From an uncultured Salinimicrobium sp. (lineage in GTDB: Bacteria; Bacteroidota; Bacteroidia; Flavobacteriales; Flavobacteriaceae), in assembly GCA_946887075.1 (NCBI GenBank), contig CAMPKA010000016.1, positions 1-64,000 on the forward strand: 64,000 nucleotides of DNA, read 5' to 3'. Below the pieces are notes generated by a model, which had not been told where the DNA came from, did not search any database, and was given only the letters and a program-made list of their open reading frames with translations. Position 1 is the first letter of the stretch; each line of letters opens with the position of its first letter. A program made the position numbers and the translations under genes. This document shows positions 24,863 through 49,992 of this stretch, in pieces.

Positions 24863-25765
24863 ATGAGTGACGACATCCTAAAAAAACTGCATGACAAGTA
24901 TACTTCCCTTGGGGAGAAACCAGAGACTTACCTGGAAGGCCTATATCATGCTCGGCCGGTAACCTACTGGGACTATATTCAGGTGGATACGCTCCTTTCC
25001 CTTCAGAACCCGAGAACCGATTTCAAAGATGAAGAGATCTTCATCATGTACCATCAGATTGTGGAGCTGATGCTGAAACTCGTACTCCATGAAGTGAAGC
25101 AAATCGTAGATGAGCACGAAGTTACCGAGGAATTTCTAATTGAGAAGGTCACCAGGGTAAACCGGTACACCTCCATGTTGATCACCTCTTATGATGTGAT
25201 GAGGTCGGGCATGAACTATGAGGACTACAATGCCTTCAGGACAGCCCTTGCCCCGGCCAGTGGATTTCAGAGTGCCCAGTTCAGGTTCATTGAGATCTAT
25301 TGCACCCGTCTGGAGAACCTGGTGAATCAAAAAGGAAAGGATCGGTTGCCTGAGCATCCTTCAGTGGAGGATTTGTTCAGTAATGTCTACTGGAAAGATG
25401 CGGGTCACGACAGGAAAATAGATACCAAAACCCTGACCCTGAGGTTATTCGAAGAAAAATACCTGGAGGAGTTCATCAGCACAGCCAAGAAGGTTCGGGG
25501 AAGAACGGTAGAGGATAAGCTATTAGCCTTGGATCATCCTTCTGATGCCCTGGTCACCAAGATCAAGGAGTTCGACAGGATATATAATGTGGAATGGCCT
25601 CTGATGCATCTGAAAACCGCCGAACATTATCTGGATCGTAAAGGAGAGAACAAGGCGGCGACCGGGGGCTCCCCCTGGAAGAAATACCTGCATCCCAAAT
25701 ATCAGCAGCGCAAGTTTTTTCCGTCTTTCTGGACCCAGGAAGAAATCGATACCTGGGGCACCTGA
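24863..25765 (+). CDS. Tryptophan 2,3-dioxygenase family protein
   Basis: A 300-residue haem dioxygenase that would open the indole ring of tryptophan to N-formylkynurenine, the first step of the kynurenine route. Family segments visible are YIQVDTLLSLQNPR, the helix IMYHQIVELMLKLVLHEVK (with the substrate-side His), and the C-terminal haem region with the probable proximal His in WPLMHLKTAEHYL followed by ATGGSPWKKYL, equivalent to the GTGGSSG loop of the family. No other kynurenine-pathway gene lies nearby, so the pathway cannot be confirmed from this window. Confidence 0.88.
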   Translation: MSDDILKKLHDKYTSLGEKPETYLEGLYHARPVTYWDYIQVDTLLSLQNPRTDFKDEEIFIMYHQIVELMLKLVLHEVKQIVDEHEVTEEFLIEKVTRVNRYTSMLITSYDVMRSGMNYEDYNAFRTALAPASGFQSAQFRFIEIYCTRLENLVNQKGKDRLPEHPSVEDLFSNVYWKDAGHDRKIDTKTLTLRLFEEKYLEEFISTAKKVRGRTVEDKLLALDHPSDALVTKIKEFDRIYNVEWPLMHLKTAEHYLDRKGENKAATGGSPWKKYLHPKYQQRKFFPSFWTQEEIDTWGT

Positions 25766-25805: not shown

Positions 25806-25826
25806 AGCTGATTTTCATCAGTTTTT
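25806..25826 (+). promoter_or_regulatory. TGAT-N4-ATCA dyad upstream of nirK (regulator site or terminator)
   Basis: AGCTGAT TTTC ATCAGTT is an inverted repeat followed by a T run. It can be read as a small terminator for the tryptophan dioxygenase gene. It also contains the TGAT-N4-ATCA core of an FNR/CRP-family operator, 111 bases before the nirK start codon. The sequence alone does not decide between the two. Confidence 0.4.
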
Positions 25827-25936: not shown

Positions 25937-27382
25937 ATGAAAAATTTTAAACAATCTAAAGCTGTTGCCCTCTACCTGCTCGGGCTGGTCCTTTCAGGAG
26001 TTACTATGGTTTCTTGTGAAAAAGCTGTAGCCGCCAAAGAAGATCCAGAGCTGATCAAAGTTTATGGAGAAAGCGATGCTGAACTGACAGCACCCCCGTT
26101 GGTACCCAGACCCGTTGGAAAACGAGCAGCTACCAAACTGATCGTAGACATGGAGGTGGTAGAAAAGGAAATGGAGATGAGCGATGGGGTTAGTTATGTC
26201 TACTGGACTTTCGACGGGACCGTTCCCGGAAGTTTCATTCGGACTCGCGTTGGTGACGAGGTGGAATTCCATTTGAAGAACCATCCATCGAATAAGCTAC
26301 CTCACAATATTGACCTGCACGCGGTAACCGGCCCTGGAGGAGGTGCCGAATCCTCCTTTATAGCTCCTGGTCATGAAGCAGTTTTCACTTTTAAAACTAT
26401 GAATCCAGGGCTTTATGTATACCACTGTGCTACTGCGCCTGTCGGAATGCATATCGCTAACGGGATGTACGGACTGATTCTGGTGGAGCCGGAAGGAGGA
26501 CTTGCACCGGTAGACCGGGAGTATTATATCATGCAGGGCGATTTCTACACCGAGGGTGAGAACGGGGAAAGAGGGCTCCAAGCCTTCAGTATGGACAAGG
26601 CTGTAGACGAGGATGCTGATTACGTGCTCTTCAATGGAAAAGTCGGAGCCTTGACAGGGGAGAAAGCCCTCACTGCCAAGGTGGGGGAAACCGTGCGGCT
26701 GTTTGTCGGCAACGGTGGCCCTAATCTGGTATCCTCCTTCCATGTTATCGGCGAAATCTTTGATAAAGTGTATGTAGAGGGTGGCGCAATGGTGAATGAA
26801 AATGTGCAGACTACACTGATCCCGGCCGGTGGGGCGGCGATAGTGGAGTTCAAGGTTGAGATTCCCGGAGAACTGGTTCTAGTTGACCACTCTATTTTCA
26901 GGGCATTTAATAAAGGGGCAATAGGAATCCTTGAAGTGGAGGGAAGGGAAAATTCCAGGATCTTCGGAGGAAAGATAGACGAGAAAGTATACAATCCGGC
27001 TCCCCTTATCTCCGAAAATACCACGATGGAAGCCAACGGCGCTGTTGCTGAGTTTTCTTTTGAAGAAAAGATGGAACAGGGAAAGGCCATATACAGCAGG
27101 ACCTGTTTGGCGTGCCACCAGGCAACCGGAAGCGGGATACCCAACGCTTTTCCTCCTCTGGCCTCTTCGGATTATCTCAATGCTGACGTTCACAGGGCGA
27201 TCGAGGTGGTGAAATTTGGATTGAATGGTAAGATCGAGGTGAATGGAAACATCTATAACAGCGCCATGCCCAAACAAAACCTCACAGATGAGGAGATTGC
27301 GAGCGTACTGACCTATGTTTACAATAACTGGAATAACAAAAAGGCCGAAGTTACCACTGAAATGGTAAAAAAGGCCAAGTAA
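25937..27382 (+). CDS. nirK: Copper-containing nitrite reductase with C-terminal cytochrome c
   Basis: Read from ATG 25937 this 481-residue protein reduces nitrite to nitric oxide. A lipoprotein-type signal ends at a cysteine near residue 27 (MVSC). Two cupredoxin domains follow. Type 1 copper ligands are visible in LPHNIDLH and [16 protein letters not shown]. Type 2 ligands and catalytic residues are the Asp and second His of NIDLH, the His of YHC, the His of SSFHVIG and the His of [12 protein letters not shown]. From about residue 400 a class I cytochrome c domain is fused, with CLACH and a distal Met in SAMPKQ, which can pass electrons directly to the copper site. An in-frame ATG at 25862 would bury the signal. 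It is first in an operon with the next two genes. Confidence 0.93.
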
Positions 27383-27392
27383 ATTAAAAGCG

Positions 27393-28181
27393 ATGGCAGG
27401 ATTTTTAAAATTGGTTACTGGTTGTGTTCTGATGATGGTCTCCTGGTCGGTTTTTTCCCAGGAGACCTCTATGGCCAGGGTGGAAGGAGGTTCCTTCCTT
27501 CCGCTTTACGGGACCTCTACCGAAGTGACTATCGAAAGTTTCATGATGGACAGATATCCCGTGACCAACGCGCAATTTGCAGCTTTTCTTGAGGGGAGCC
27601 CCCAGTGGAAAAGGTCAAGGGTGAAAAGGCTTTTTGCAGATTCTAACTACCTCAGATCGTGGGCAGGGGACTTGGATCCCGGACCCGCAAATGATCCCGA
27701 TGCCCCTGTGACCAATGTTTCGTGGTACGCAGCGAAGGAATTTTGCGAATGCCAGGGCAAGCGCCTTCCGAAAGTAGAGGAATGGGAATATGCAGCTATG
27801 GCCAGTGAGGAATTACCTGATGCCAGAGCTGATAAAGATTTTAACAGCTATATTTTGAGCTGGTACGAAACCCCGACCACCTATGATAACCAGGTCGGCA
27901 AAACCTTCAGGAACTACTGGGGAATCTACGACCTCCACGGCCTTGTGTGGGAATGGACTCTGGACTACAACTCGGTTCTTATTTCCGGAGAATCCCGAAA
28001 GGATGCTGTAGGAGACAACAGCCTGTTCTGCGGAGCAGCTGCAGTAAGCGCCACGGATTTGATGAATTATGCGGCCTTTATGAGATATGCTTTCAGAGGG
28101 AGTATTAAAGCCAGTTATGCCATTGAAAATCTCGGATTCCGCTGTGTCGGCCAAATTGATGAACAAAAAAACATGTTATGA
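27393..28181 (+). CDS. Secreted FGE-sulfatase-fold protein lacking catalytic cysteines
   Basis: A 262-residue protein with a Sec signal peptide (about residues 1-23) and a formylglycine-generating-enzyme/SUMF1 fold: VEGGSFLP, MMDRYPVTNAQFAAFL, VTNVSWYAAKEFC, RLPKVEEWEYAAM, LHGLVWEWT and the C-terminal ENLGFRCVG. In true FGE two cysteines lie 18-28 residues before the NLGFRC motif; here that region reads MNYAAFMRYAFRG with none. It is therefore not a copper oxidase of the FGE kind and may have a binding or assembly role. It follows nirK by 10 bases and overlaps the SCO gene by 4, so function in periplasmic nitrite reduction is likely by context. Confidence 0.85.
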   Translation: MAGFLKLVTGCVLMMVSWSVFSQETSMARVEGGSFLPLYGTSTEVTIESFMMDRYPVTNAQFAAFLEGSPQWKRSRVKRLFADSNYLRSWAGDLDPGPANDPDAPVTNVSWYAAKEFCECQGKRLPKVEEWEYAAMASEELPDARADKDFNSYILSWYETPTTYDNQVGKTFRNYWGIYDLHGLVWEWTLDYNSVLISGESRKDAVGDNSLFCGAAAVSATDLMNYAAFMRYAFRGSIKASYAIENLGFRCVGQIDEQKNML

Positions 28182-28789
28182 AAAAAGGACTCATTTTTCT
28201 GTTAGGATTGGCAGTGTTGCTTTCCTGTAACGAAAAAAAGGCAGAACCCCAGGCCCCACCGGAAATCCCCGCCCAGGCAATCCGGCAGGAAATTCCTGAA
28301 CTATCCATTTACAACCTGCCGGCCACCTGGACCACCCAGGACAATGAGCAGATCGAACTCCGGGATTTAGAGGGAAAAGTGCTGGCCATGGTCATGATCT
28401 ATACCTCCTGCAAGGCTGCCTGTCCCAGACTGGTGGCTGATATGCGGAATCTGGAGAATCAGGTTCCCGAATCCTTACTGGATGACATTCAGTTCGTCAT
28501 GGTGAGCATTGACCCCGATACGGATACCCCGGCGAGGCTAAAGCAATTTGCGCATGAGAATAAAATGGAGGAGGACCATTGGCTTTTTTTAAGAGGAACA
28601 CAGGAGGATACCCGGGAATTTGCGGCGGTGCTGGCAGTGAGTTACAAGAGGATATCTCCGATGGACTTCTCTCATTCGAACATTATCAGCATTTTCGATG
28701 AGACAGGCGTCCTGGTCCATCAACAGGAAGGCCTGGGTGTTGACAACACGGAAACCATAACGGCTATAAAAGAGGAACTGAAGGATTAA
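28178..28789 (+). CDS. SCO1/SenC-family copper chaperone lipoprotein
   Basis: A 203-residue thioredoxin-fold protein that binds copper outside the cytoplasm. The signal ends in a lipobox (VLLSC, about residue 17), so it is a lipoprotein. The copper motif CxxxC is present in YTSCKAACPRL, and the third ligand His is in DFSHSNIISIFDE. Its place as the third gene of the nirK operon, with a 4-base overlap, suggests that it loads copper into the nitrite reductase. The more usual role, delivering copper to the CuA site of cytochrome oxidase (coxB is about 20 kb away), cannot be excluded. Confidence 0.9.
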   Translation: MKKGLIFLLGLAVLLSCNEKKAEPQAPPEIPAQAIRQEIPELSIYNLPATWTTQDNEQIELRDLEGKVLAMVMIYTSCKAACPRLVADMRNLENQVPESLLDDIQFVMVSIDPDTDTPARLKQFAHENKMEEDHWLFLRGTQEDTREFAAVLAVSYKRISPMDFSHSNIISIFDETGVLVHQQEGLGVDNTETITAIKEELKD

Positions 28790-28809
28790 TTCAGGGGAGG
28801 CAATTTATG

Positions 28810-28835
28810 GAAAGCCGGCGGAAAGACCGGCTTTC
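28810..28835. terminator. Bidirectional terminator between convergent operons
   Basis: GAAAGCCGG pairs with CCGGCTTTC (9 pairs) around the loop CGGAAAGA. It sits between the convergent stop codons of the SCO gene and the membrane-protein gene. Only weak T-rich tails are present on either side. Confidence 0.6.
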
Positions 28836-28840
28836 TGTAT

Positions 28841-30058
28841 TTAAGGGAATTTGCCGGGATCCGGTTTCCAGCTTCTTTGGTTCTTCCATAGCATGAGCCC
28901 CAGAGCCAGGGGCATCAGAGCGCTGACCAGGGCCAGGAGGAGGAAGTAATCTGAAAGGAATGGAATACCAAGCCAAATGGCCACTCCCTTATAAAAAATC
29001 AGAAGCTCTGACAAAATGAATCCAGTCAAATACAACCAGAAGAGTTTGGGAGGCACCAGGAGAAGCTCCGCTCTATTCAAAAAAACCAATAGCGAGATAC
29101 TGACCACGCCAAGGAAAGTCCAGTGAAGATACCCGATGATGAAATCCGGGTAGCGGAATCCAAGATCTGCAAAAAAAGGAATGGCTGAAAGGACCTGAAG
29201 CAGGATTTTTCCCCACAGCAGAAGGAAAGCCATCCGTAGCAACTGTCTCTGAAATGGAGAAAAAACGGTCCAAACTGATCTCTTCACGATGCTGGAGAAT
29301 TCCAGAAACCCCATCAGCTGAAAAATCGCGCCAAGCGCTCCGAGAACGTAGAAAACCCAATGTGGTTCAAGCCAGAGCGCGGAGAGGAACAAAGAGAGCA
29401 CAATTCCCACGTTTGTCAGGTAAAAGAAGCGGCTCAGGCTTCCGCGATCCTTCAGGGGACCGTTCTTTTCAAGAAAGTAGAACAGGATGCCGCACAGGGC
29501 TAGGATAAACCAGGCGTTGTACTGGAAGTGGAGGTAGAAATAAATCGATAACTTATACCAGATTGAGGTCTTACCAAGGGTAGCCATCACCCCGCCAACA
29601 GCCCAGGGTCCGACGCTGGAGATTAGCATGTACCAAAGTGCGGCTCTGATACATTTGAAGGAAAACGTTTGTTTGTTAACTGCATCCACGTTCTTAAAAA
29701 AGTACCAGGCTGTAATGTAGGAGGAAAACAGGAAAAGGGTCGAAAAGATGATGGACCAGAGCGCATAGCCGGTAAAGGGAAAGGTGCAGAGCATTCCGAT
29801 CAGGGTGATCTGGGTAAACTGAAAGATCCTTTTATACAAGATTGTTTTGGTTCCGGGGGGGATGTACAGCCTGTAGATCAGCGTAATCAGCGCAAGATAC
29901 ACCCATCCCAGGAGAGCTATGTGGGAATGAGCATGGACGACATAGCGGAAATTTGCACCGATGGGAGTGACGAAGAAAAGGCGGAGAAAAACCCCGAGGA
30001 ATGCAGCAATACAGAAATAAAGAAATGCAGTTCGGGTATGCCGCCTTAAGTTTATCAT
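28841..30058 (-). CDS. Polytopic membrane protein, NnrS/haem-copper-oxidase-like
   Basis: A 405-residue, very hydrophobic protein with about twelve membrane helices and short loops. Several histidines lie within or at the edge of helices: H42, H44 and H46 in VVHAHSHIALLGWVY, one in YLHFQYNAWF (about residue 175) and one in GYLHWTFLGV (about residue 310). This layout recalls NnrS and the catalytic subunit of haem-copper oxidases, but the full set of six oxidase ligands is not there, so it is not a standard oxidase. It is last in a minus-strand run behind a kinase, a REC-CRP regulator and a stress protein, and converges on the nirK operon. A role in nitric oxide or haem/copper handling is inference. 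Confidence 0.7.
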   Translation of the reverse strand: MINLRRHTRTAFLYFCIAAFLGVFLRLFFVTPIGANFRYVVHAHSHIALLGWVYLALITLIYRLYIPPGTKTILYKRIFQFTQITLIGMLCTFPFTGYALWSIIFSTLFLFSSYITAWYFFKNVDAVNKQTFSFKCIRAALWYMLISSVGPWAVGGVMATLGKTSIWYKLSIYFYLHFQYNAWFILALCGILFYFLEKNGPLKDRGSLSRFFYLTNVGIVLSLFLSALWLEPHWVFYVLGALGAIFQLMGFLEFSSIVKRSVWTVFSPFQRQLLRMAFLLLWGKILLQVLSAIPFFADLGFRYPDFIIGYLHWTFLGVVSISLLVFLNRAELLLVPPKLFWLYLTGFILSELLIFYKGVAIWLGIPFLSDYFLLLALVSALMPLALGLMLWKNQRSWKPDPGKFP

Positions 30059-30097
30059 AGATCTAAATTAGAAAATCCTTCTGTCACAGGAAATGCT

Positions 30098-30907
30098 TCA
30101 GTGCAGGACCAGGAGGGGGAGCTGGTTCATCATTGGGATCTGAAAGGTCTTGTTCTTATGCAGAAACTGCTGGCACAGCCTTAGGTTCCGCGCCGCAAGC
30201 ACGATGAGATCAATATTTCGCTGATCGAATACGAGGCCATTGAGATCCTGCCCATCCGGATTATCCCAGGTCAGCGACACCGGTACTTTTGGTGAAAAAT
30301 AGTCCTTAAGCATATTCCTGTTGAGCAATTGCTCCGGAGTTGGTTCGGAAGAATTGTCGAACAGTTCCAGAATGTTGACACTTGTCCGGGAGAGTGAACT
30401 CAGGCTGTTGAGCAAGTGGAGGAGTCTGCTGTCAAATCTGACCTTATAGTCGGTAGGAAACAGGAGTTCCTTATATTCCCTGTAAACGGCCTTTTCGGAA
30501 ATTGCCAGTACAGGACATTTTACCTTCATCATGACGTCAGAGGTGTTTTTCCCAATGATTCCCCAGCTGCTGTTGGTCTGCCCCTTGGTGCCCATCAGAA
30601 TGAGGTCGATGTTTTTTTCCTGGACCTTATCCCGGACAGCCTGAATCAGGAAATCGGCTTTAAAGCAGGCATGAAAATGATGATCTGGATTCTTCCTAAC
30701 CGTATGAAGCCACTCAAGTAGCCCTTCAAATTTTTTCTGCACTTCGGGGGAAGCCGCCAGATAGGAGGTCTGCAGTCTTCCGGAAGGGGCTTCTATGACG
30801 TGAAGCAAGTAGAAGTTGCACCGGGTATTCTTGAAGAATTCCATCGCATATACAGCAGCGTTCCTGGCATTCTCAGAAAAATCAGTTGGCAAGAGGACAT
30901 TCATCAT
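30098..30907 (-). CDS. Universal stress protein, two-domain
   Basis: A 269-residue UspA-family protein when started at ATG 30907, which begins MMNVLLPTDFSENARNA; the in-frame ATG at 30964 adds an atypical leader. The first domain (about residues 1-145) carries the nucleotide-loop-like motif MGTKGQTNSSWGIIGKNTSDV near residue 120. The second domain (about 150-269) is degenerate. It lies between the REC-CRP regulator (80 bases upstream) and the polytopic membrane protein (39 bases downstream) on the same strand. In other bacteria Usp proteins near oxygen or nitrate regulators belong to anaerobic regulons, which fits the neighbourhood. Confidence 0.85.
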   Translation of the reverse strand: MMNVLLPTDFSENARNAAVYAMEFFKNTRCNFYLLHVIEAPSGRLQTSYLAASPEVQKKFEGLLEWLHTVRKNPDHHFHACFKADFLIQAVRDKVQEKNIDLILMGTKGQTNSSWGIIGKNTSDVMMKVKCPVLAISEKAVYREYKELLFPTDYKVRFDSRLLHLLNSLSSLSRTSVNILELFDNSSEPTPEQLLNRNMLKDYFSPKVPVSLTWDNPDGQDLNGLVFDQRNIDLIVLAARNLRLCQQFLHKNKTFQIPMMNQLPLLVLH

Positions 30908-30987
30908 CACGGATTCATTTGTCCTGCAAATCTCGGGTAAGAGCTTTCCGGAAAAAATGATCAAAATCAGAAAATGCGCTTTTGGGA

Positions 30988-32031
30988 TCAGGCAATCCGC
31001 TTCAGTGCCTCGATATCCAGCAATTTGATGTTGCGTCCCTCAATCTCGATAAGCCCTTCCTTTTTAAATTCTGAAAGGGTACGGATCAGGGTTTCCGGGG
31101 CCATTCCAGCAACACTTGCCAGGTCACTTCTCGAAATCCGGATACTCTGGGTGGGAAAGCGCCGGATCTTCTGGGAAAAGAGCAGAATGGTCTTAGCGGT
31201 CTTTTTACGTACGGAGCCATAGGCCATCTCCAGGAGCTGTTCCTTGATTCCCGCAATGCTGTCCCCCATGATGTCGATGAGTTCCAGGGCAACCTGGCTG
31301 TTTTTTACCAGGATCTCCCTTAACTCCTCTTTGGAAATGGCATAGATGCGGGTGTCTTCCATGGCTGTGGCATATTCCTCGTATGCCTGGGGGCGATGAA
31401 AGGAAACGTTGCCAAAGAAATCCCCTTGTTTGTACAGAGAAGTGATAAGTTCTTTCCCGTAGTCATCGATACGATGCGTCTTGACCACGCCTCTGTCAAC
31501 CAGAAAGAAATAATTTCCCTGCCTTCCCTGCTCATAAATGGTCTCTCCGGTTTTGAAGGTGCGAGCGTCATGTTTTCTGACCTCCTCCTTCAATGCCTCC
31601 ACGCTTTCGATCTGGCCCTCCGGCTCCATTAAAGGCTTCGGCTCCTTTCGGCTCTGTAAGATAGACACCTTGGCGAGTCTGCTTTCAATGGCTCCGATAA
31701 GTTCTTCTTCCTCGAAGGGTTTGGTCAGGTAATCATCCGCCCCCAGGTCCATACCTCTCCTGATGTCCTTGTGCTCGGTCTTGGCGGAAAGAAAGATAAA
31801 GGGGATCTGGGCTGTTGCTTGATGCTTCCCCAGGGTCTGAAGCACGGAATACCCGTCCATTTCCGGCATCATGATGTCACAGACCACAATATCTGGAAGG
31901 TCCTTTTGGGCAGCTTCTACCCCGCTGCGGCCATTGGCAGCGGTGATCACTTCATATCCGGCCAATTCCAGCAATTCTGCTGTGTTTTCTCTGACTACTG
32001 TGTCGTCTTCTATAAAGAGTACCTTCTTCAT
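30988..32031 (-). CDS. Response regulator fused to CRP/FNR-type transcription factor
   Basis: A 347-residue protein joining two modules. Residues 1-120 are a receiver domain with the acidic pair in FIEDDT, the phospho-acceptor in VVCDIMMPEMDG, the Ser of FLSAKT and the Lys of YLTKPF. Residues 150-260 form a cyclic-nucleotide-binding-type beta roll (YEQGRQGNYFFLVDRGVVK). Residues 275-345 form a CRP-type helix-turn-helix (SRSDLASVAGMAPETLIRTL). No FNR-type cysteine cluster is visible. It lies 9 bases after the kinase gene, so it is very probably that kinase's partner. The targets may be the adjoining nirK operon and stress genes, as in FixJ-FixK cascades but in one protein. Confidence 0.92.
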   Translation of the reverse strand: MKKVLFIEDDTVVRENTAELLELAGYEVITAANGRSGVEAAQKDLPDIVVCDIMMPEMDGYSVLQTLGKHQATAQIPFIFLSAKTEHKDIRRGMDLGADDYLTKPFEEEELIGAIESRLAKVSILQSRKEPKPLMEPEGQIESVEALKEEVRKHDARTFKTGETIYEQGRQGNYFFLVDRGVVKTHRIDDYGKELITSLYKQGDFFGNVSFHRPQAYEEYATAMEDTRIYAISKEELREILVKNSQVALELIDIMGDSIAGIKEQLLEMAYGSVRKKTAKTILLFSQKIRRFPTQSIRISRSDLASVAGMAPETLIRTLSEFKKEGLIEIEGRNIKLLDIEALKRIA

Positions 32032-32040
32032 AAGTATTTT

Positions 32041-33282
32041 TTAACGTCTGTCCATGGGCACCTCCACAGTGAAGGTGGTTCCCTGATTTTCCTGGCTTTC
32101 AAATGCAATACTGCCCCCCAGATTTTCCAAATGGACCTTAGCGATGTTCAGCCCAATACCTGTGCCCTGAGTAAGCAGCGCGTTTTCTGCCCTGAAATAC
32201 CGCTCGAAAATGTGCTTCTGATCCTTTTGCGGGATTCCCATCCCCTGATCCTTTACAGTAAAGGCTATTTTCTCCCCAGTGACCTGGATATCAAAAGTGA
32301 TCAGGCTATCTTCAGGGGAATACTTTATCGCATTGCTCAGAAGATTGGAAAGTACCAGCTCGAGAATTTTTTCATCCTGGTGTAACATGATGCCTTCCGT
32401 ATTCTCAGGATACCGGATGTTCTGTCCGCTCTTCAGCGTCACATTGGCATTATAAATCACCTCATTGATCAGTTTGGACAGGCTGAAGGTAGAAAATTTG
32501 TACCTGACCTTTCCGCTTTCCAGACGCTCGATGGAAAGAAAATCATTGAGAATGTTGTCCAGGTAGTGCACCTTGCTCTTGATCGTGTTCAGGTGTTTCT
32601 CCCGTTTTTCTTGTTGTTCCTCCAGCTTGTATTTGCCGGCAAGGACCACTGAGGTCAGGATCCCGCTCAGGGGCGTCTTGAATTCATGGGATACCAGGGA
32701 AAGGAATTTGGTCTTAAGATCACTGAGTTCCTTCTCCTTCTGAAGTGCCGCCTTGATTCGGTTTTCCGCTTCCTTACGCCTTTTGATCTCCATCTCGAGG
32801 CTCCGGTTGAGCTTCTGAAGTTTTTGAACGCTTTCTTCCAGTTCCTTTGTCCGCTGCCGGATTTTATCCTCAAGTTCGTTATTGAGCTCCGTGATCTGGC
32901 GCTGGGCCTCCTTCCTGACGGAGATATCGATTACCAGGGACATCACGTATCTTTCTCCCCCGATTGAGAAGGGGTTTAGTCCAGCTTCAACCGGGAATTC
33001 CTTTCCGTCCTTTTTGATCCCATAGAGGTCCCGGCCATGCCCCATCTGCCGCTTTTCACTCTCATGCATAAAATTTTCAAAATGATGGGTGTGGGATTTT
33101 CTGTACTGCTGCGGGAGTAAGACGTTCAGCGGTTTACCGACTAGTTCGCCCTTGGCATAACCGAACATGCTGTCTGCTGCAAGATTGCTGCTGACAATCT
33201 TCTGGTTGGCATCTACTACGATAATCCCCTCTGAGGCAGCCTCAAAGAGAACATTGAACACATTCTCATCCTTTTCAAACAT
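32041..33282 (-). CDS. Soluble PAS-domain sensor histidine kinase
   Basis: A 413-residue kinase without membrane helices. A PAS domain (about residues 5-125) is followed by a coiled coil (130-190), the HisKA helix with LVSHEFKTPLSGIL, and an HATPase_c domain with the N box NLLSNAIKYS, VKDQGMGIP and GTGIGLNIAK. The PAS domain contains QYRKSHTHHFENF and GHGRDLYGIKKDGKEFP, which align well with the FixL haem pocket, including a His at the position of the proximal haem ligand. It may sense oxygen or NO through haem, but many non-haem PAS domains have similar residues. Its gene precedes the REC-CRP regulator by 9 bases. Confidence 0.9.
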   Translation of the reverse strand: MFEKDENVFNVLFEAASEGIIVVDANQKIVSSNLAADSMFGYAKGELVGKPLNVLLPQQYRKSHTHHFENFMHESEKRQMGHGRDLYGIKKDGKEFPVEAGLNPFSIGGERYVMSLVIDISVRKEAQRQITELNNELEDKIRQRTKELEESVQKLQKLNRSLEMEIKRRKEAENRIKAALQKEKELSDLKTKFLSLVSHEFKTPLSGILTSVVLAGKYKLEEQQEKREKHLNTIKSKVHYLDNILNDFLSIERLESGKVRYKFSTFSLSKLINEVIYNANVTLKSGQNIRYPENTEGIMLHQDEKILELVLSNLLSNAIKYSPEDSLITFDIQVTGEKIAFTVKDQGMGIPQKDQKHIFERYFRAENALLTQGTGIGLNIAKVHLENLGGSIAFESQENQGTTFTVEVPMDRR

Positions 33283-33337
33283 AGAAGGTGGTTTGGGTAC
33301 CGGAGTGGGGTCGAAACCCCGTGGTCCGCGGATTTTC

Positions 33338-33345
33338 CAAAGTTA
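33338..33345 (-). promoter_or_regulatory. Possible -7 element for the kinase/regulator run
   Basis: TAACTTTG on the minus strand fits TAnnTTTG and lies 55 bases before the kinase start codon. No clear TTTG is found at the expected distance upstream. Confidence 0.4.
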
Positions 33346-33388
33346 GAAAAAAGACCCAACTTCTGGAACTGCGGCCTGGGCCAATAGA

Positions 33389-33421
33389 AAAGGATCTGGC
33401 CAACATGTCACCAGATCCTTT
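33389..33421 (-). terminator. Hairpin terminator after the small membrane ORF
   Basis: AAAGGATCTGG pairs perfectly with CCAGATCCTTT (11 pairs) around an 11-base loop. On the minus strand TTTTCTATT follows. It lies 54 bases downstream of the 70-residue ORF and upstream of the kinase promoter box, so it separates two transcription units. Confidence 0.65.
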
Positions 33422-33475
33422 CGCGTACCGCATCAGCACTTCATTCCATCAATTCTACGTTGCGGTTACGCGGGT

Positions 33476-33688
33476 TCAATTGCCTTCTTCTTCTGCTGAG
33501 GACACGAAATCCTTGTCCGCGGGAAGCAATCTGTTGGCAAGTCGGGTAACCGTCATAGCTATGAGAACGGCGGTAATGACAAACAACAGGAATTTAGCCA
33601 TAAGGCTATTCTCAAGAACATCGCTATAGAAAGTGAGAATTATCTCAATTGCCAAAAAGGCCAGTTGAAAACTTGCTTTTAACACCAT
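33476..33688 (-). CDS. Small membrane protein (70 residues), hypothetical
   Basis: A 70-residue frame with a hydrophobic segment near the N terminus (residues 4-20), another at about 29-50, and an acidic tail (SSAEEEGN). It is consistent with a small inner-membrane protein with two helices. Support comes from the terminator-like hairpin just downstream on the same strand and from the lack of any other gene in a 528-base gap. No homologue is recognised, and the start codon lacks a clear promoter or ribosome-binding site, so it remains uncertain. Confidence 0.5.
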   Translation of the reverse strand: MVLKASFQLAFLAIEIILTFYSDVLENSLMAKFLLFVITAVLIAMTVTRLANRLLPADKDFVSSAEEEGN

Positions 33689-33810
33689 AACCGCTTCTGA
33701 ATGTGCGATAAAGATACACCACAGAATGATGGTTTTCAGCGCCTGACAAAGGTTTCACCTAAATTTAACGCCTGTCATTTCAAAGGTTAATAACTTTAGG
33801 TTAAGATTTC

Positions 33811-34653
33811 CTAAACCTCCTTCTCCATCCTGAAAGTGATTATCGGCGTGGTGGAGTGATTGACCAGATCTTCACTGATACTGCCGTTGAGAAAATGGGC
33901 GAGTCCCCTCCTTCCATGCGTAGCCACCCCGATGACATCCGCGTGGTGGGATTTCGCGAAGTGCAGAATGCCTTCCTCAACGGAGTTATCATTATAGACG
34001 TGGAATTCATAATTGGTGAAATCCAGCCCTTCCACGTATTTTTCAAGGAATTCATCCACCTGCCTTGAGGTGATGAATTCATGGGCAGTATTGATGTACA
34101 ACAGGTGTAGTCTGGCATCTTCAAGACGTGCGAAGTCGATCACCTTTTGCAGCGTTTTCCGGTTGTGAGAATCAAGGTTTGTAGCAAATACGATGTTCTT
34201 GATCTGGAAGTTCTCATGTTCCTTTTTGATGACCAGAACAGGTATCTCTGAGGTGCGCACCACCTTTTCCGTATTGGACCCTACAAACATCTCTCTGAAT
34301 CCAGTCGCCCCTTTGGAACCCATTACGATAAAATCGCAGCCATGTTTCCTGCTGGTTTCCATGATCCCGTCGAAGGCCCTGTGAAAATCGACCGTATCAA
34401 AGACCTCTATCCCGTTCAGGTATGGTCTGGAAGTGATTTCCGAAAACCTTTTTTTGGCGAGTTTCATAAAATAGATCGCTTCCGGAAGATCATTGCTGCG
34501 GGTTTCCCCGACGGGATTGACCATGTCGACCGGCAGCTCGATCATATGTAAGAGGTAGATCTGTGCGTCGTGTTTCCGGGCGAGCTGAGCCGCCACTTTT
34601 AGCGCATTTTCAGCCTCGGTGGAGAAATCTGTGGGCACGAGTATTTTTTTCAT
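33811..34653 (-). CDS. Universal stress protein, two-domain
   Basis: A 280-residue UspA-family protein starting MKKILVPTDFSTEAENAL. The first domain (residues 1-145) has the ATP-binding loop VMGSKGATGFREMFVGSNTEKV, closely matching the G-2x-G-9x-G(S/T) motif. The second (about 150-280) has a matching loop, GVATHGRRGLAHFLNGSISEDL, so both halves look competent for nucleotide binding, unlike the paralogue at 30098. It lies alone on the minus strand, divergent from rimP. Its position close to the kinase/regulator genes suggests shared control. Confidence 0.9.
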   Translation of the reverse strand: MKKILVPTDFSTEAENALKVAAQLARKHDAQIYLLHMIELPVDMVNPVGETRSNDLPEAIYFMKLAKKRFSEITSRPYLNGIEVFDTVDFHRAFDGIMETSRKHGCDFIVMGSKGATGFREMFVGSNTEKVVRTSEIPVLVIKKEHENFQIKNIVFATNLDSHNRKTLQKVIDFARLEDARLHLLYINTAHEFITSRQVDEFLEKYVEGLDFTNYEFHVYNDNSVEEGILHFAKSHHADVIGVATHGRRGLAHFLNGSISEDLVNHSTTPIITFRMEKEV

Positions 34654-39924: not shown

Positions 39925-41271
39925 ATGAAAAAGGTGAACCACCGCCATTCAGTCTTCCGTGTACTTCTTCTGAGTATATCCCTGTTTCTCTTTACCTTAA
40001 ATACCACCGTTTTTGCCCAAGATACCGCCCCCGCTGAGGCCGAACCAGCCCAGGAGGAGCCGACTGCGGAACCAGTGGCCGCTGAGGGTGATCCGGCTGC
40101 CGGAAAGGAGATTTTCAATACGCTTTGTGCGGTGTGTCACAAACTGGACAGCAAATCCATCGGTCCGCCGCTCAGGGATGTGACGGAACGCAGAGATCGG
40201 GAATGGTTGCATAAATGGATTTCAAACAGCCAGGCGCTGATCGCAGCCGGGGACGAAGTGGCAGTGGAAATCTACAACGAATATGGGCAGACGGCCATGC
40301 CCCCTTTTCCGCAATTGTCGGATTCGGATATTGAAAATGTTCTCGCATACGTGAGCCAACCCAAAGCCGAGCCACAGGCCGCTGCGGGAACTACTGCCGC
40401 TGCCGGGGAGAGCACCGCTTCAGGCGGAGGGGTTTCCACGGACATCATCCTGGGAATTCTCGTCTTCGTCTTACTGATGCTCCTGGTGGTTCTTTACCTG
40501 GTGAACAAGACGCTGCGCAGGTTTGCTACGATGAGCGGGGTTGAACTGCCGGTCAGGCCAAAGAGAAAACCGATCTGGAAATCATTTGTAGAGAATCAGT
40601 TCCTGCTTGTGCTCAGCGCAATTCTACTGCTGTTGGTCGGCGCCTATTTTGTCTACGGGTACCTGATGCAGGTGGGAGTGGATCAGGCTTACAAGCCGAT
40701 TCAACCGATCCATTTTTCACACCGCATCCATGCCGGTGAGAACCAGATCGAATGTAAATTTTGTCATTCCTCTGCGAGGGTTTCCCAGACCTCGGGCATA
40801 CCTTCACTAAACGTCTGTATGAACTGTCATAAGAGCATAAGCGAGGTGGCTCCTGAAACGGCCAGCGAAGAGTATTCCAAGGAATTCTATGACGGGGAAA
40901 TTGAGAAGCTGTACGATGCCGTCGGATGGAATGTTGCCGAACAAGCCTATACAGGGGAAACCGAGCCTGTGAAATGGGTGAGGATACACAATCTACCCGA
41001 TTTTGCCTATTTCAACCATGCCCAACACGTGGAGGTCGGGGGAATCGCCTGCCAGACCTGTCACGGACCGGTAGAGGAGATGGAAATCATGTACCAGAAC
41101 GCCCCACTTACCATGGGCTGGTGTGTGAACTGTCACCGTGAGACCAATGTTAGAACGGAAGGCAATGAATACTACGAGAAGATCCACGCGGAACTCTCAC
41201 AGAAATATGGCGTTGAAGAGCTGACTGTTGCCCAGATGGGAGGTACAGAGTGTATTAAATGTCACTACTAA
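39925..41271 (+). CDS. actA: Alternative complex III subunit A, monohaem plus pentahaem cytochrome c
   Basis: A 448-residue multihaem cytochrome of alternative complex III, which takes electrons from quinol and passes them to cytochrome c or the oxidase. After a signal peptide (1-31) there is a monohaem class I cytochrome domain (CAVCH near residue 68, distal Met in AMPPF). A low-complexity Ala/Gly linker, two membrane helices (about 175-195 and 228-252) and the pentahaem domain follow (CKFCH, CMNCH, CQTCH, CVNCH and a terminal CIKCH). The second part matches the usual ActA; the N-terminal haem domain is an added module. It is the first gene of the act-cox operon, 16 bases before actB. Confidence 0.93.
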   Translation: MKKVNHRHSVFRVLLLSISLFLFTLNTTVFAQDTAPAEAEPAQEEPTAEPVAAEGDPAAGKEIFNTLCAVCHKLDSKSIGPPLRDVTERRDREWLHKWISNSQALIAAGDEVAVEIYNEYGQTAMPPFPQLSDSDIENVLAYVSQPKAEPQAAAGTTAAAGESTASGGGVSTDIILGILVFVLLMLLVVLYLVNKTLRRFATMSGVELPVRPKRKPIWKSFVENQFLLVLSAILLLLVGAYFVYGYLMQVGVDQAYKPIQPIHFSHRIHAGENQIECKFCHSSARVSQTSGIPSLNVCMNCHKSISEVAPETASEEYSKEFYDGEIEKLYDAVGWNVAEQAYTGETEPVKWVRIHNLPDFAYFNHAQHVEVGGIACQTCHGPVEEMEIMYQNAPLTMGWCVNCHRETNVRTEGNEYYEKIHAELSQKYGVEELTVAQMGGTECIKCHY

Positions 41272-41287
41272 TCAGTTAAAGAAGAAA

Positions 41288-44200
41288 ATGAGCAATATGT
41301 CATCAAAGAGAAGATACTGGCAAAGTTTCGAGGAACTGAAGGAGTCAAGCCCTGTCGTGGAGGCTACCCAGAAGGAATTTGCGGAGGAAATTCCAATTGA
41401 CGACTTCCTGGGGGATAAAGAATCCCTTTCGAGTTCCAAAACATCTCGTCGGGACTTTCTGAAATTCATGGGCTTCAGTACAGCTGCGGCTTCCCTTGCT
41501 GCCTGTGAAGGGCCGGTGATGAAATCCATTCCTTACGTCGTACAACCGGATAGAATCGTACCGGGACTTGCCAATTATTACGCCACCACAATGGCGGATG
41601 GCTATGATTTTTCGGGTGTATTGGTAAAGGTCAGGGAGGGCAGACCGATCAAGATAGAGCGCAACACAATGGCGATAACTGGGACCAATGCCCGAGTGCA
41701 GGCTTCCGTTCTATCGCTTTATGATAACAAGAGGGTACAGCGGCCCATGATCGACGGCCAGGCTGTGACCTGGGGCCAATTCGATAAGGAGGCTCGTGCA
41801 AAACTGGATGGTGTCAACGGAGAAATTGTGCTCCTGACCCAGACCTTTGCCAGTCCGTCCACAAGTAGAGTGATCAAGGATTTTTCCGCTAAATACGGAA
41901 ATGTCCGACACGTGGTCTATGATACCATCTCTGAGGATGCGGCGCTGGATGCCTTTGAACAGAAATACGGAATCCGGGCGCTACCGCAGTACGATTTTTC
42001 CAAAGCCGGAGTCATCGTCTCAGTGGGTGCGGATTTCTTGGGAGACTGGGCAGGAGGTGGTCATGATGCTGGTTACGCCCTGAGTCGAATTCCGGAGAAT
42101 GGATCAATGTCCCGTCACATCCAGTTTGAATCCAATTTCACCATGACCGGAGCCAAGGCTGATAAAAGGGTGCCCCTGAGCCTTTCGGAGCAAAGGCAGG
42201 TAATGGCCGCGCTCTACAGCCGCGTGACAGGCAACGCTTCAGGAGGACAACTCCCCGCCCGGCTGGAAGAGGCCGTTGCCAAGGCAGCGAATCAGCTAAA
42301 GCGGGCAGGAAGAAAAGGTGTGCTTGTTACGGGAATCCCGGATGCCAATGCGCAAACCCTTGCCCTTGCCGTTAATGAATCGCTCGGTAGTGAGGTCATG
42401 AATGCCCGCGATCCCAGAATGCTCAGACAAGGGAATTCGGCAGCTGTAAAACAACTTGTTCAGGACATGAATGCAGGAAGGGTGGGAGCCCTACTCATAG
42501 CAGGGGTCAACCCGGCCTATAGTTTGCCCTTCGCACCGGAGTTTCTTGAAGGATTAAAAAAGGTGGATCTCAGAATCGCCTTTAGCATGAAATTAGATGA
42601 AACTGCAAAACTGTGCAATTTTGTCGCCGCCACCCCACATTACCTTGAAAGCTGGGGGGATGTTCAGTTTACCCAAACGCGTTTTGGTCTGATGCAGCCG
42701 ACAATCCGGCCCTTATTTGATACGAGTCAGTTCCAGGACATTCTCCTGAGATGGTCGGATAACAATACCACCTTCCATGATTACATACAGGAAACCTGGA
42801 GCGGAACGCTCGACAAGGATGGGTGGGTCCAGGCACTTCACGATGGCGCTTTTGAATCTCAGGCTCCCGTACAGGGGGACTTGGCAGCCATGGCTGAGGA
42901 ACCAGCCCCGGCCGGAAGCATTGAAGGGGAGGCCCTTCGGAACCTCGAAGGGGTGCAGGGTAAAGGAATGGAACTGGAGCTTTACGCTTCTACCTCGATG
43001 GGTTCCGGGAATCAGGCGAATAACCCTTGGCTTCTTGAAATGCCCGATCCAATTACCCGAGTCACCTGGGACAATTACCTGAAGATCTCGAAATTTGATG
43101 CCGAGGCCATGGGTCTTGAAAATGAGTACGTTTCGAACGGTGCCCTGAACGGGGATTATGTCAACCTCAGGGTAGGGGATACTGTGCTTGAAAAAGTTCC
43201 CGTTTACATTCAGCCCGGACAGGCCAGAGGAGTGGTTTCCCTGGCACTGGGATACGGCCGGAAGGAGGCGATCCAGAAGGAGATGCAGGTCGGGGTGAAC
43301 GCATTCCCGCTCTATAAAGACTTCAGGAGCTTCCAACCCGTCACCATAGAGAAAGCATCAGGGGAACATGAATTCGCCTGTACACAGCTGCAGAATACCT
43401 TGGCCGGGCGTGATAATATCATCCGGGAGACCACCCTTTCCATTTACAAGACCAAAGAAAAGGAAGTATGGAATCCGTTCCCGGAAGTTTCCTATAACCA
43501 CAGCCCCATTCCCGTCAGCGATGACAATGCGGATATTTGGGAACCGTTTGACAGCTCTATCGGGCATCATTTCAACATGTCGATCGATCTGAACGCTTGT
43601 ACAGGATGTGGCGCATGTGTGATCGCCTGCCAGGCGGAAAACAATGTCCCGGTGGTAGGGAAAGAAGAGGTAAGGAAGTTCAGGGATATGCACTGGCTCC
43701 GGATCGACCGGTATTACTCCTCAGAAGACACCTTTAAAGAGGATCACGAGGCTCTGGATAATCTGGGAACTTTTGAGACCTACGATGATGTGGAGACCGC
43801 TTCGGCGGAAAACCCGCAGGCGATCTTCCAGCCGATGTTATGCCAACATTGTAACCATGCCCCCTGTGAAACAGTTTGTCCGGTTGCGGCAACGATGCAT
43901 AGCCGCGAAGGCCATAACCAGATGGTTTATAACAGATGTGTGGGAACCCGTTACTGTGCCAACAACTGTCCTTATAAGGTAAGGAGATTCAACTGGTTCC
44001 TCTATGCAAGGAATGACGAATTCGATTACCACATGAACAGCGACCTTGGCCGTATGGTTCTGAATCCGGATGTTACGGTGAGATCTCGCGGCGTGATGGA
44101 AAAATGTACTTTCTGTATCCAGAGGACACAGCGAACTAAGATGGATGCCAAGCTTGAAGGTAGATCCATCAAGGACGGAGAATTCAATACTGCGTGTTCC

Positions 44201-44365
44201 CTCGCCTGTGATAAAGGAGCCATTGTTTTCGGGGATATCAATAATGAAGAGTCCCGAATTCTCGAATTGGCCAATAATGACAGGATGTTCCATGCCCTGG
44301 GAGAAATGGGTACACGACCAAATGTGTTGTATCAGGTGGCTGTGACCAACGATACCGAGGATTAA
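41288..44365 (+). CDS. actB: Alternative complex III subunit B, molybdopterin-like/iron-sulfur fusion
   Basis: A 1025-residue protein from ATG 41288; the upstream in-frame ATG (41228) lies inside actA. A twin-arginine motif, SRRDFLKFMGFSTAAASL, at about residue 53 followed by an Ala-Ala-Cys lipobox-like site marks export by Tat. The large central part resembles the molybdopterin-oxidoreductase fold, which in this family holds no cofactor. The C-terminal part (from about 770) is a ferredoxin-type domain with CTGCGACVIACQAE, CQHCNHAPCETVCPV, CVGTRYCANNCPY and CTFCIQ cysteine groups. The third group lacks one cysteine, as expected for a [3Fe-4S] cluster next to [4Fe-4S] clusters. It is flanked by actA and actC. 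Confidence 0.94.
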   Translation: MSNMSSKRRYWQSFEELKESSPVVEATQKEFAEEIPIDDFLGDKESLSSSKTSRRDFLKFMGFSTAAASLAACEGPVMKSIPYVVQPDRIVPGLANYYATTMADGYDFSGVLVKVREGRPIKIERNTMAITGTNARVQASVLSLYDNKRVQRPMIDGQAVTWGQFDKEARAKLDGVNGEIVLLTQTFASPSTSRVIKDFSAKYGNVRHVVYDTISEDAALDAFEQKYGIRALPQYDFSKAGVIVSVGADFLGDWAGGGHDAGYALSRIPENGSMSRHIQFESNFTMTGAKADKRVPLSLSEQRQVMAALYSRVTGNASGGQLPARLEEAVAKAANQLKRAGRKGVLVTGIPDANAQTLALAVNESLGSEVMNARDPRMLRQGNSAAVKQLVQDMNAGRVGALLIAGVNPAYSLPFAPEFLEGLKKVDLRIAFSMKLDETAKLCNFVAATPHYLESWGDVQFTQTRFGLMQPTIRPLFDTSQFQDILLRWSDNNTTFHDYIQETWSGTLDKDGWVQALHDGAFESQAPVQGDLAAMAEEPAPAGSIEGEALRNLEGVQGKGMELELYASTSMGSGNQANNPWLLEMPDPITRVTWDNYLKISKFDAEAMGLENEYVSNGALNGDYVNLRVGDTVLEKVPVYIQPGQARGVVSLALGYGRKEAIQKEMQVGVNAFPLYKDFRSFQPVTIEKASGEHEFACTQLQNTLAGRDNIIRETTLSIYKTKEKEVWNPFPEVSYNHSPIPVSDDNADIWEPFDSSIGHHFNMSIDLNACTGCGACVIACQAENNVPVVGKEEVRKFRDMHWLRIDRYYSSEDTFKEDHEALDNLGTFETYDDVETASAENPQAIFQPMLCQHCNHAPCETVCPVAATMHSREGHNQMVYNRCVGTRYCANNCPYKVRRFNWFLYARNDEFDYHMNSDLGRMVLNPDVTVRSRGVMEKCTFCIQRTQRTKMDAKLEGRSIKDGEFNTACSLACDKGAIVFGDINNEESRILELANNDRMFHALGEMGTRPNVLYQVAVTNDTED

Positions 44366-44401
44366 AACTTGTAGAAAAAAATCAGAATCAATCATTAGCA
44401 T

Positions 44402-46204
44402 ATGTCGTCACATTACGAAGCACCAATAAGAGAGCCTTTAATCATCGGCGAGAAAACCTATAAGGACATCAGTGCCGATGTGGGTGCTCCCATCTTCGGG
44501 AGGGCCAACAGGTCCTGGTGGATAGTTTTTCTGATCGCTCTTGCAGCGTTTCTCTGGGGTCTGGGCTGTATCATCTATACGGTGTCTACGGGGATCGGAG
44601 TCTGGGGTCTTAATAAGACCATCGGATGGGCATGGGATATTACCAATTTTGTCTGGTGGGTAGGGATCGGCCATGCGGGTACCCTGATTTCGGCCGTCCT
44701 TCTGCTTTTCAGACAAAAATGGAGAATGGCCATCAACAGATCTGCGGAAGCGATGACGATATTTGCTGTCGTTCAGGCGGGGCTTTTCCCGATCATACAT
44801 ATGGGGCGACCCTGGCTGGCATACTGGGTACTCCCGATTCCGAACCAGTTCGGATCCCTTTGGGTGAACTTCAACTCCCCATTGTTATGGGACGTCTTCG
44901 CGATCTCGACTTATCTCTCTGTGTCTCTGGTATTCTGGTGGACGGGTCTGCTTCCGGATTTTGCGATGTTAAGGGATAAGGCCACAAGACCATTCCAGCA
45001 AAGGATTTATGGGATCCTGAGCTTCGGATGGAGCGGCAGGGTAAAGGACTGGCAGCGCTTTGAGGAAGTGTCTCTTGTTCTGGCAGGTCTTGCGACCCCG
45101 CTGGTACTTTCGGTCCATACCATCGTATCCTTTGACTTTGCCACGTCCCTTGTTCCGGGATGGCATAGTACGATTTTCCCGCCATATTTCGTAGCCGGGG
45201 CGATCTTCTCAGGTTTTGCAATGGTGCAGACCCTGCTGATCATTATGCGGAAAGTGTCTCACCTGGAGAACTATATCACGCTCCTGCATATTGAATACAT
45301 GAATAAGGTCATCCTGTTGACCGGTGGGATCGTTTCGGTGGCCTACATCACAGAATTTTTTATCGGTTGGTACTCCGGGATGGACGCTGAAAACTACACC
45401 TATATGTCCTTTGGGGCAGCAACAGGACCTTACTGGTGGGCATTCTGGGCCTTGATCATCTGTAACTTCATCGTTCCGCTTTCCCTATGGGTGAAAAAGC
45501 TTCGCCGTAATATCATGTGGACCTTTTTTGTGGCCCTGGTGATCAATATCGGGATGTGGTTCGAAAGATTTGATATCATCGTCATTAACCTTAGTAAAGG
45601 GCGTACTCCTTCGTCCTGGACCCTGTTTTCACCGACCTTTGTGGATATCGGGGTCTTTATAGGGACTATAGGATTTTTCTTTGTGCTGTTCCTTCTTTAT
45701 GCGAGAACATTTCCGGTGATCGCCCAGGCCGAGGTCAAAACAATCCTGAAGTCCTCGGGAGAAATGCACAAGAGACTCAGGGAGGAGCATCATCTGAAAA
45801 CGGACCGGTATATACCCGATCCCTCCGTGGAGGAGCCTGCAGCCAATCTTTCTGCGAATGCCGATAATGACCTGGAGGAAGAGGAAACCACTGAGCATGA
45901 ACCCACTGTCCACACTGAAGGTCTGACCAATTCGGAGATCGACAGGGAGCGGCTGGATGACATGCTTCATGAGATCGGCGTGTTTGATCCTGCTACTCAG
46001 GCAGCCGACGATCTTCAGAAACTGAAAGGGGTGGGTCCGGTAATGGAGCAGAAACTGCATCAGGTCGGAATCTATACCTATGAGCAGGTGAGCCGTTTGC
46101 GTGAGGAACATATCCGTTTGCTCAGCGGAATCATTGATAACTTCCCTACAGCTGAGAATCGAGGGAACTGGAATGAGCAGGCAGAAATACTTAAAAACAA
46201 ATAA
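44402..46204 (+). CDS. actC: Alternative complex III subunit C (NrfD-like) with helix-hairpin-helix tail
   Basis: A 600-residue NrfD/PsrC-type membrane subunit that carries the quinol site. About ten membrane helices lie between residues 38 and 445, with typical segments such as GIGHAGTLISAVLLLFRQ and IHMGRPWLAYW. After residue 450 comes a charged cytoplasmic region of about 150 residues. Its end (about 535-600) has a helix-hairpin-helix-like module, LQKLKGVGPVMEQKLHQVGI, followed by a NFPTAENRGNWNEQAEIL segment. Similar modules occur at the ends of some NuoE and other proteins. The core is ordinary; the tail makes it about 130 residues longer than I expect for ActC. It ends one base before actD. 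Confidence 0.93.
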   Translation: MSSHYEAPIREPLIIGEKTYKDISADVGAPIFGRANRSWWIVFLIALAAFLWGLGCIIYTVSTGIGVWGLNKTIGWAWDITNFVWWVGIGHAGTLISAVLLLFRQKWRMAINRSAEAMTIFAVVQAGLFPIIHMGRPWLAYWVLPIPNQFGSLWVNFNSPLLWDVFAISTYLSVSLVFWWTGLLPDFAMLRDKATRPFQQRIYGILSFGWSGRVKDWQRFEEVSLVLAGLATPLVLSVHTIVSFDFATSLVPGWHSTIFPPYFVAGAIFSGFAMVQTLLIIMRKVSHLENYITLLHIEYMNKVILLTGGIVSVAYITEFFIGWYSGMDAENYTYMSFGAATGPYWWAFWALIICNFIVPLSLWVKKLRRNIMWTFFVALVINIGMWFERFDIIVINLSKGRTPSSWTLFSPTFVDIGVFIGTIGFFFVLFLLYARTFPVIAQAEVKTILKSSGEMHKRLREEHHLKTDRYIPDPSVEEPAANLSANADNDLEEEETTEHEPTVHTEGLTNSEIDRERLDDMLHEIGVFDPATQAADDLQKLKGVGPVMEQKLHQVGIYTYEQVSRLREEHIRLLSGIIDNFPTAENRGNWNEQAEILKNK

Positions 46205-46205
46205 A

Positions 46206-46733: not shown

Positions 46734-46738
46734 ACCTA

Positions 46739-47431: not shown

Positions 47432-47450
47432 CAGTATTATATTAGCCAGT

Positions 47451-48812: not shown

Positions 48813-48840
48813 AAACAGTAGTTAAAGAAGATATATTAAG

Positions 48841-49971: not shown

Positions 49972-49992
49972 TAAAGTTAAGATTAAAAAAAT

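Follow-up and report, generated by a model that had tools for sequence, protein, structure and literature searches.

Where would the nitric oxide (NO) go in a bacterium that carries a copper nitrite reductase gene and no NO reductase gene nearby? This question is raised by the first 64 kb (positions 1 to 64,000, hereafter the window) of contig CAMPKA010000016.1 from an uncultured Salinimicrobium sp., in which genes were assigned by profile models (Pfam and NCBIfam). There, nirK and the genes for an FGE-domain protein and a SCO1/SenC-type copper chaperone (SCO) run on the plus strand towards a minus-strand run that encodes a 12-helix membrane protein (MEM), a universal stress protein (Usp1), a fusion of receiver and CRP-type domains (REC-CRP) and a PAS histidine kinase, with a second stress protein (Usp2) beyond. 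All of these genes lie on the strands given in an original prediction, made from the letters alone, that had described the block as a self-contained nitrite/low-oxygen module. The tie to NO and the domain fusion in that description stood, and similar regulatory boxes were found upstream of both nirK and Usp1, whereas the dedicated and self-contained module was not supported. Instead, with a probability of roughly 60%, we favor the reading that a NO source (nirK-FGE-SCO), an NnrS-like protective membrane protein (MEM) and a FixL-like/REC-CRP low-oxygen switch are placed side by side here.

MEM (28841-30058, minus strand, 405 residues) was analysed by its predicted fold, ligands, co-occurrence and neighbours. 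Among 249 Flavobacteriaceae genomes, including Salinimicrobium G001 and G004, MEM was found in 86, nirK in 48, the quinol-type and cytochrome c-type NO reductases (qNOR and cNOR) in 28 and 34, nosZ in 119 and REC-CRP in 113. MEM is present in 45 of the 48 nirK genomes (16.6 expected) and in 54 of the 60 genomes with any NO reductase (20.7 expected), absence of the latter being judged by two queries at E 1e-60, and MEM and nosZ occur together in 66 genomes (41.1 expected); since all the genomes are related and belong to a single family, the Fisher p values are too small. At least one of nirK, NO reductase and nosZ accompanies MEM in 85 of its 86 genomes, the exception being G200. As for the three MEM genomes that lack nirK, qNOR and nosZ (G200, G128 and G158), cNOR is present in G128 and G158, and G200 has none of the four.

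The neighbours of MEM were counted at 120 loci, comprising the best 80 of 577 confirmed matches and 40 further loci. Within about 6 kb, Ric was found beside 89 of the MEM genes, Rrf2 beside 65, nosY beside 54, nosZ beside 42, nirK beside 19 and a NorB-type gene beside 16, where the label qNorB takes in cNOR-type matches; cco genes were also found there. The neighbours were named via NCBIfam (Ric TIGR03652, NosZ TIGR04246, ccoNO PRK14485, P-type ATPase). The protein termed qNorB reaches only 28.7 bits with its single NCBIfam model, and its name, a probable one, comes from its length and from matches to cNOR genes standing with norC/Q/D-like genes. NsrR was not the best model for the Rrf2 neighbours in one NCBIfam scan. 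In addition, a small protein that weakly matches Ric models (cluster hemer11, at many of the loci L123-L153) lies near MEM in 46 of the 120 neighbourhoods, and a cluster directly after nosZ (c8) occupies what we take to be the nosB position of clade II nos clusters. Of the 31 genomes that have MEM and nirK on a shared contig, 26 have them no more than 20 kb apart, and the convergent layout of the window recurs at 13 of the 21 loci with both genes (same strand in four, divergent in four). Beyond the family, MEM was found in 32 of 198 genomes of a phylum-wide Bacteroidota sample, some of which are Flavobacteriaceae already counted. One locus (L185) lies on a plasmid of the Cytophagales member Tunicatimonas pelagia (NZ_CP120684, 704-18542), with the order Rrf2-ric-MEM-cytochrome c-nosZ-nosD-ABC genes and a Crp/Fnr gene, and with transposase genes (Tn3 family) on either side; it is possibly a mobile unit for nitrous oxide (N2O) reduction. 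The tie of MEM to NO chemistry is thus well supported by linkage, and since MEM travels with NO genes, it is probably a NO protector.

What, then, could MEM do with NO? No Pfam or NCBIfam model is reached at cut-off by the window protein, and no match was found for MEM in the PDB by sequence or in PHROGs. Weak matches were obtained to DUF2871 in 16 of 36 family members (best E 4.9e-5; window protein E 0.4) and to COX1 (PF00115) in 7 of 36 (best E 2.6e-5). The AF2 model of MEM (pLDDT 84.5) matches the fold of heme-copper oxidase and NO reductase subunit I (CcoN, NorB) over its whole length (Foldseek, VIA-align), and some homologues carry the database label ‘Cytochrome C and Quinol oxidase polypeptide I’, with PF00115 in at least three of 120 among the matches listed. 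In local hhalign comparisons with qNOR, cNOR and CcoN (probabilities 10.6, 29.1 and 1.4), helix II of MEM was paired with their helix X, which may reflect the internal pseudo-symmetry of the fold.

For the ligands, 120 MEM sequences were aligned, from the window, 80 genome loci and 39 of the 40 further loci, one of 121 sequences having been removed by a length filter; no pair is more than 97% identical. H44, H46 and H312 are invariant, H42 is conserved in 118 and H177 in 119, so the original description of the membrane protein as histidine-rich is borne out insofar as conserved histidines stand in helices II, VI and X; K284 and E351 are also invariant. The catalytic ligands of heme-copper enzymes are a helix VI histidine, a helix VII histidine pair and two helix X histidines. 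MEM retains H177 and H312 alone of this set. Between residues 178 and 311 there is no conserved histidine, the commonest being H233 in 34 of 120, and the helix VII pair is therefore absent. Helix X has the single histidine H312; the second one of NorB lies two residues before the H312 equivalent, that is at MEM position 310, which is Tyr in 89 sequences and Phe in 31. We take the two NorB histidines to be the ligands of the active and the low-spin heme. These positions were assigned from helix number and spacing in the NorB alignment, rather than from superposed coordinates. The helix II histidines and H312 would probably form a low-spin heme b site, and, to judge from these residues, MEM cannot assemble a binuclear centre like that of oxidases and NO reductases in the known way. 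MEM as a canonical NO reductase was rejected on the loss of the catalytic ligands, and for the same reason NO reduction by MEM is unlikely. The original proposal of MEM as the only local candidate to handle NO is supported as regards its tie to NO chemistry, and not in the sense of a NO-reducing enzyme.

The predicted MEM model and NnrS have the same overall fold. None of 36 scanned MEM members matched the NnrS model PF05940, in a scan where HMMER filters conceal most matches above E 0.1, although this model gives 377 and 332 bits with a pair of NnrS proteins encoded on plasmids; hhalign of MEM (36 rows) against NnrS (7 rows) gave a probability of 0.1, with no detectable profile similarity. 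MEM was therefore rejected as a member of PF05940, although one homologue (P0046) is labelled ‘NnrS family protein’ in a database. PF05940 was found in none of 80 Flavobacteriaceae genomes, and since control genomes gave no match either, its absence from the family is unproven.

The source of NO lies on the opposite strand. The nirK product (25937-27382, plus strand), a copper nitrite reductase with a fused C-terminal cytochrome c (PF00034), scores 352.8 bits against TIGR02376, above the cut-off of 296.3, and its N-terminus, judged by eye, resembles a lipoprotein signal. The FGE-domain protein (27393-28181, plus strand; PF03781, 120 bits) presumably occupies the NirV position, and in a Sinorhizobium meliloti locus an FGE-family gene likewise follows nirK. 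SCO (28178-28789, plus strand; PF02630) ends 51 bp from the convergent MEM gene. As the original prediction had noted, no NO reductase gene was found: tblastn over the window gave no match for qNorB or Ric at E 1e-5, and the sole match for cNorB was an aa3 oxidase subunit I (50965-51468, E 1e-4). The sole match for nosZ was the cupredoxin part of nirK.

On the regulatory side, the joining of a phosphorylation domain and a CRP-type domain in one protein was confirmed by domain profiles: REC-CRP (30988-32031, minus strand) comprises a receiver (PF00072), a cyclic nucleotide-binding fold (PF00027) and a CRP helix-turn-helix (PF13545). Its Asp52 is conserved in 28 of 28 sequences. FNR-type iron-sulfur cysteines are absent from the window protein, whose lone cysteine, Cys51, lies in the receiver, and the output is CRP-type and not the LuxR-type output of FixJ. 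The kinase (32041-33282, minus strand; HisKA His199) has a PAS domain of the FixL type. Among 16 PDB sequences matched by this domain, the best 12 are FixL, DosP or ‘heme pas sensor’, followed in 13th place by a multi-sensor histidine kinase and in 14th by YddU, which we take to be DosP. In alignment with FixL (1d06), His64 is kept in 27 of 27 orthologues and Arg84 in 25 of 27; these are presumably the proximal histidine and the FG-loop arginine, a pattern that marks the domain as a putative heme-PAS. The kinase adjoins REC-CRP in 30 of the 30 best loci (of 141 REC-CRP matches, with at most eight candidates scored per genome), and no REC-CRP was found in viral contigs. At seven of 20 wider loci (L165, L167, L169, L174, L176, L177 and L182) copA/fixI is close to the pair, with ccoNO too in five of them, which suggests that the switch is more often partnered by cbb3 oxidase than by nirK. 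REC-CRP and nirK meet in 27 genomes (21.8 expected, p 0.11), REC-CRP and nosZ in 79 (54.0 expected; within 20 kb in 10 of 37 same-contig genomes) and REC-CRP and MEM in 55 (39.0 expected; within 20 kb in 4 of 28). The pair thus looks like a FixL together with a FixJ-FixK hybrid, a putative general low-oxygen switch that is not nirK-specific.

Could the two runs nevertheless share regulation? Such a hint in the original prediction gained support, since CRP/FNR/FixK-like palindromes (TGAT-N4-ATCA) stand upstream of nirK (TGATTTTCATCA, 25809-25820) and 48 bp upstream of the Usp1 start (TGATCAAAATCA, 30958-30969). Usp1 (30098-30910, minus strand, 270 residues; PF00582) most likely begins at ATG 30910, as its homologues begin likewise; the start in the open reading frame list, TTG 30964, falls within the box. 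In Salinimicrobium the same palindrome lies 64-65 bp before Usp1 in five of five loci, and the box, in its strict or relaxed form, precedes nirK at L001, L081, L082, L083 and L085. The relaxed form, TGA[TC]N4[AG]TCA, was scored over the 120 MEM loci and 20 REC-CRP loci, with genes having less than 40 bp of upstream sequence excluded. It precedes nirK in 19 of 20 cases, copA/fixI in 20 of 23, Usp1-like genes in 40 of 51, the kinase in 13 of 26 and Ric in 18 of 77, compared with 162 of 991 unlabelled genes that serve as background and surely include some true targets. With strict half-sites, a spacer of 4 gave 136 genes and spacers of 3, 5 and 6 gave 2, 4 and 13; three scrambled motifs gave 11, 3 and 6. 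There may be two layers, in which nirK, usp and copA are under CRP/FNR-type boxes and ric, norB and MEM are mostly near an Rrf2 regulator.

The window NusA shares 96% identity with its counterpart in Salinimicrobium catena, which makes this genus the nearest named relative seen. In five of five Salinimicrobium loci (L001-L005), Usp2, the kinase, REC-CRP, Usp1 and MEM follow in the order of the window, and therefore the run is no chance collection. The difference is that in all five ric and qnorB separate Usp1 from MEM, whereas the window has only a 39-bp gap there (30059-30097). Because only these 39 bp part the two genes, MEM may be co-transcribed with usp1, under its promoter. In the genome behind the window, ric and norB may have been lost or moved. 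At a more distant locus from a metagenome-assembled genome (L007), Ric adjoins MEM and norB is absent.

The proposed course of events would be as follows. The nirK-FGE-SCO genes would turn nitrite into NO. The FixL-like heme-PAS kinase and REC-CRP would probably sense low oxygen: the deoxy heme would turn the kinase on, the receiver would be phosphorylated, and the CRP domain would act on TGA-N6-TCA boxes, switching on usp1 and the MEM gene behind it, and perhaps nirK too. MEM would most likely bind NO or metal-nitrosyls and thereby limit the harm that NO does at the membrane, and would not reduce NO by the known mechanism. Domains, predicted fold, conserved residues, linkage and boxes are results of the computation, whereas heme binding, oxygen sensing, phosphotransfer, the target genes and the protective role are inferred from them.

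Several observations weigh against this proposal. Common descent of MEM and NnrS is unproven because neither a PF05940 match nor profile similarity was found, and the kinase scores 102.9 bits against the curated FixL model NF041777, far below its cut-off of 850. The known part of the genome amounts to 64 kb, and ric and norB may be encoded outside it. The co-occurrence tests take no account of genome kinship, and MEM is missing from six NO reductase genomes, three nirK genomes and 53 nosZ genomes. The relaxed box is rare before MEM (7/82), qNorB (0/15), REC-CRP (1/31), ccoNO (1/32) and nosZ (0/8). In a re-count of 15 nirK loci the box was present in 13, namely in 8 of the 10 from genomes that have REC-CRP and in all 5 from genomes that lack it; therefore another CRP/FNR protein can serve nirK. 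The full consensus TTGA-N6-TCAA does not occur in the window (2.05 expected) and TGA-N6-TCA occurs 35 times (23.3 expected), which makes single boxes weak evidence. Finally, 25 of the 86 MEM genomes lack both nirK and NO reductase, and 24 of these 25 have nosZ, so the role of MEM could concern N2O and not NO.

The last point leads to another view of MEM, as a one-subunit quinol dehydrogenase with a low-spin heme b that supplies electrons to NosZ or NirK, or for N2O reduction, without being a protector. The conserved histidines suit a low-spin heme, and in many nos clusters of the Flavobacteriaceae the MEM gene comes after nosY; however, MEM is missing from 53 of 119 nosZ genomes and from only 3 of 48 nirK genomes, and its commonest neighbour is Ric rather than nosZ, which makes this an unlikely explanation. 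MEM could also consume NO itself, in place of a NO reductase, at a new metal site made of HxHxH (helix II), H177 and H312. The five conserved histidines would fit, as would the presence of MEM in seven of nine nirK genomes without cNOR or qNOR (E 1e-60) and the pairing of nirK and MEM in the window, in whose 64 kb no NO reductase gene was found; yet the helix VII pair and the active-heme histidine are missing, and 54 of the 86 MEM genomes have a true NO reductase as well, so that we regard it as improbable. A bolder form, in which MEM founds a second Bacteroidota-wide family of the heme-copper fold that lost the oxidase site and turns over NO at the HxHxH/H177/H312 site, is equally improbable; if true, organisms that have nirK but lack a NO reductase, possibly including the one studied here, would still dispose of NO.

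The association of the two runs can be read in two further ways. If the whole block were a single dedicated nitrite/low-oxygen regulon, REC-CRP would directly control nirK, as suggested by the box type common to Usp1 and nirK, by regulator and nirK lying within 20 kb in G001 and G127, and by analogy with the direct control of nnrS by FixK2 in Bradyrhizobium diazoefficiens, according to passages of PMC6710368. However, these are the only two of 14 genomes with both genes on the same contig (27 have both genes) in which they are so close, a result on which a dedicated nirK regulator was rejected; of the 113 genomes with REC-CRP (249 sampled), 27 also carry nirK where 21.8 would be expected, and the nirK boxes that persist where REC-CRP is absent weaken it further. 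The regulon is accordingly doubtful, and the neighbourhood expected by the original prediction recurs for MEM and nirK and not for the regulator and nirK. Conversely, a rearrangement may have made the regulator run and the NO genes neighbours without any functional tie. In L002-L005 nirK is outside the stretch examined around the regulator (it is within 10 kb of MEM in L001 only, and L005 is a short contig end that stops soon after MEM), and nirK stands beside ccoNO in five of five Salinimicrobium genomes; but ric-qnorB-MEM directly behind Usp1 on the same strand in all five loci, and the shared box type, argue for a tie, and mere juxtaposition seems rather unlikely.

Elsewhere in the window, Usp2 (33811-34653, minus strand; PF00582 in two stretches) adjoins rimP-nusA-infB. 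Shortly past infB, 39925-51807 encodes a multiheme cytochrome, a molybdopterin/iron-sulfur protein, an NrfD-like protein and then aa3-type oxidase subunits II and I, which looks like an alternative complex III with an oxidase. A tryptophan 2,3-dioxygenase-like protein is encoded at 24863-25765, its profile match spanning only about 120 of 300 residues.

If confirmed, the proposed role would provide a testable NO-protection gene for Bacteroidota, and would suggest that the heme-copper fold, stripped of its active site, was put to new use in NO handling, perhaps on two occasions. A literature search, made without settled names to go by, gave no paper in which MEM or the FixL-like/REC-CRP pair is named. 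Passages of PMC6264515 describe dnrN and nnrS in some nos scaffolds, and one of its figure legends mentions a ‘transmembrane protein’; the neighbourhood has thus already been seen in print.

How does the locus compare with known systems? By fold, ligand pattern and linkage, MEM would fill the place of NnrS in Flavobacteriaceae; set against NnrS, it has HxHxH and H177. It is like CcoN and NorB in its predicted subunit I fold and unlike them in that H177 (helix VI) is the only remaining metal histidine, helix X keeps a single one and the helix VII pair is gone. The Rrf2-(norB)-ric-MEM runs of many Flavobacteriaceae and of the Cytophagales plasmid resemble the NsrR/Rrf2-linked NO-defence clusters (ric/dnrN, nnrS, norB), whereas the window has neither an Rrf2 gene nor ric, and its MEM follows Usp1. 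The regulators resemble the rhizobial FixL-FixJ-FixK2 cascade in their FixL-like heme-PAS kinase, receiver and CRP-type DNA binder, and the Flavobacteriaceae loci in the FNR-type boxes before nirK, Usp and copA/fixI. However, receiver and CRP domain are here in one protein, a LuxR-type FixJ output is lacking, the genes that constantly adjoin are those for Usp proteins, and the box is rare before ccoNO itself; the pair would thus represent a shortened FixLJ-FixK cascade.

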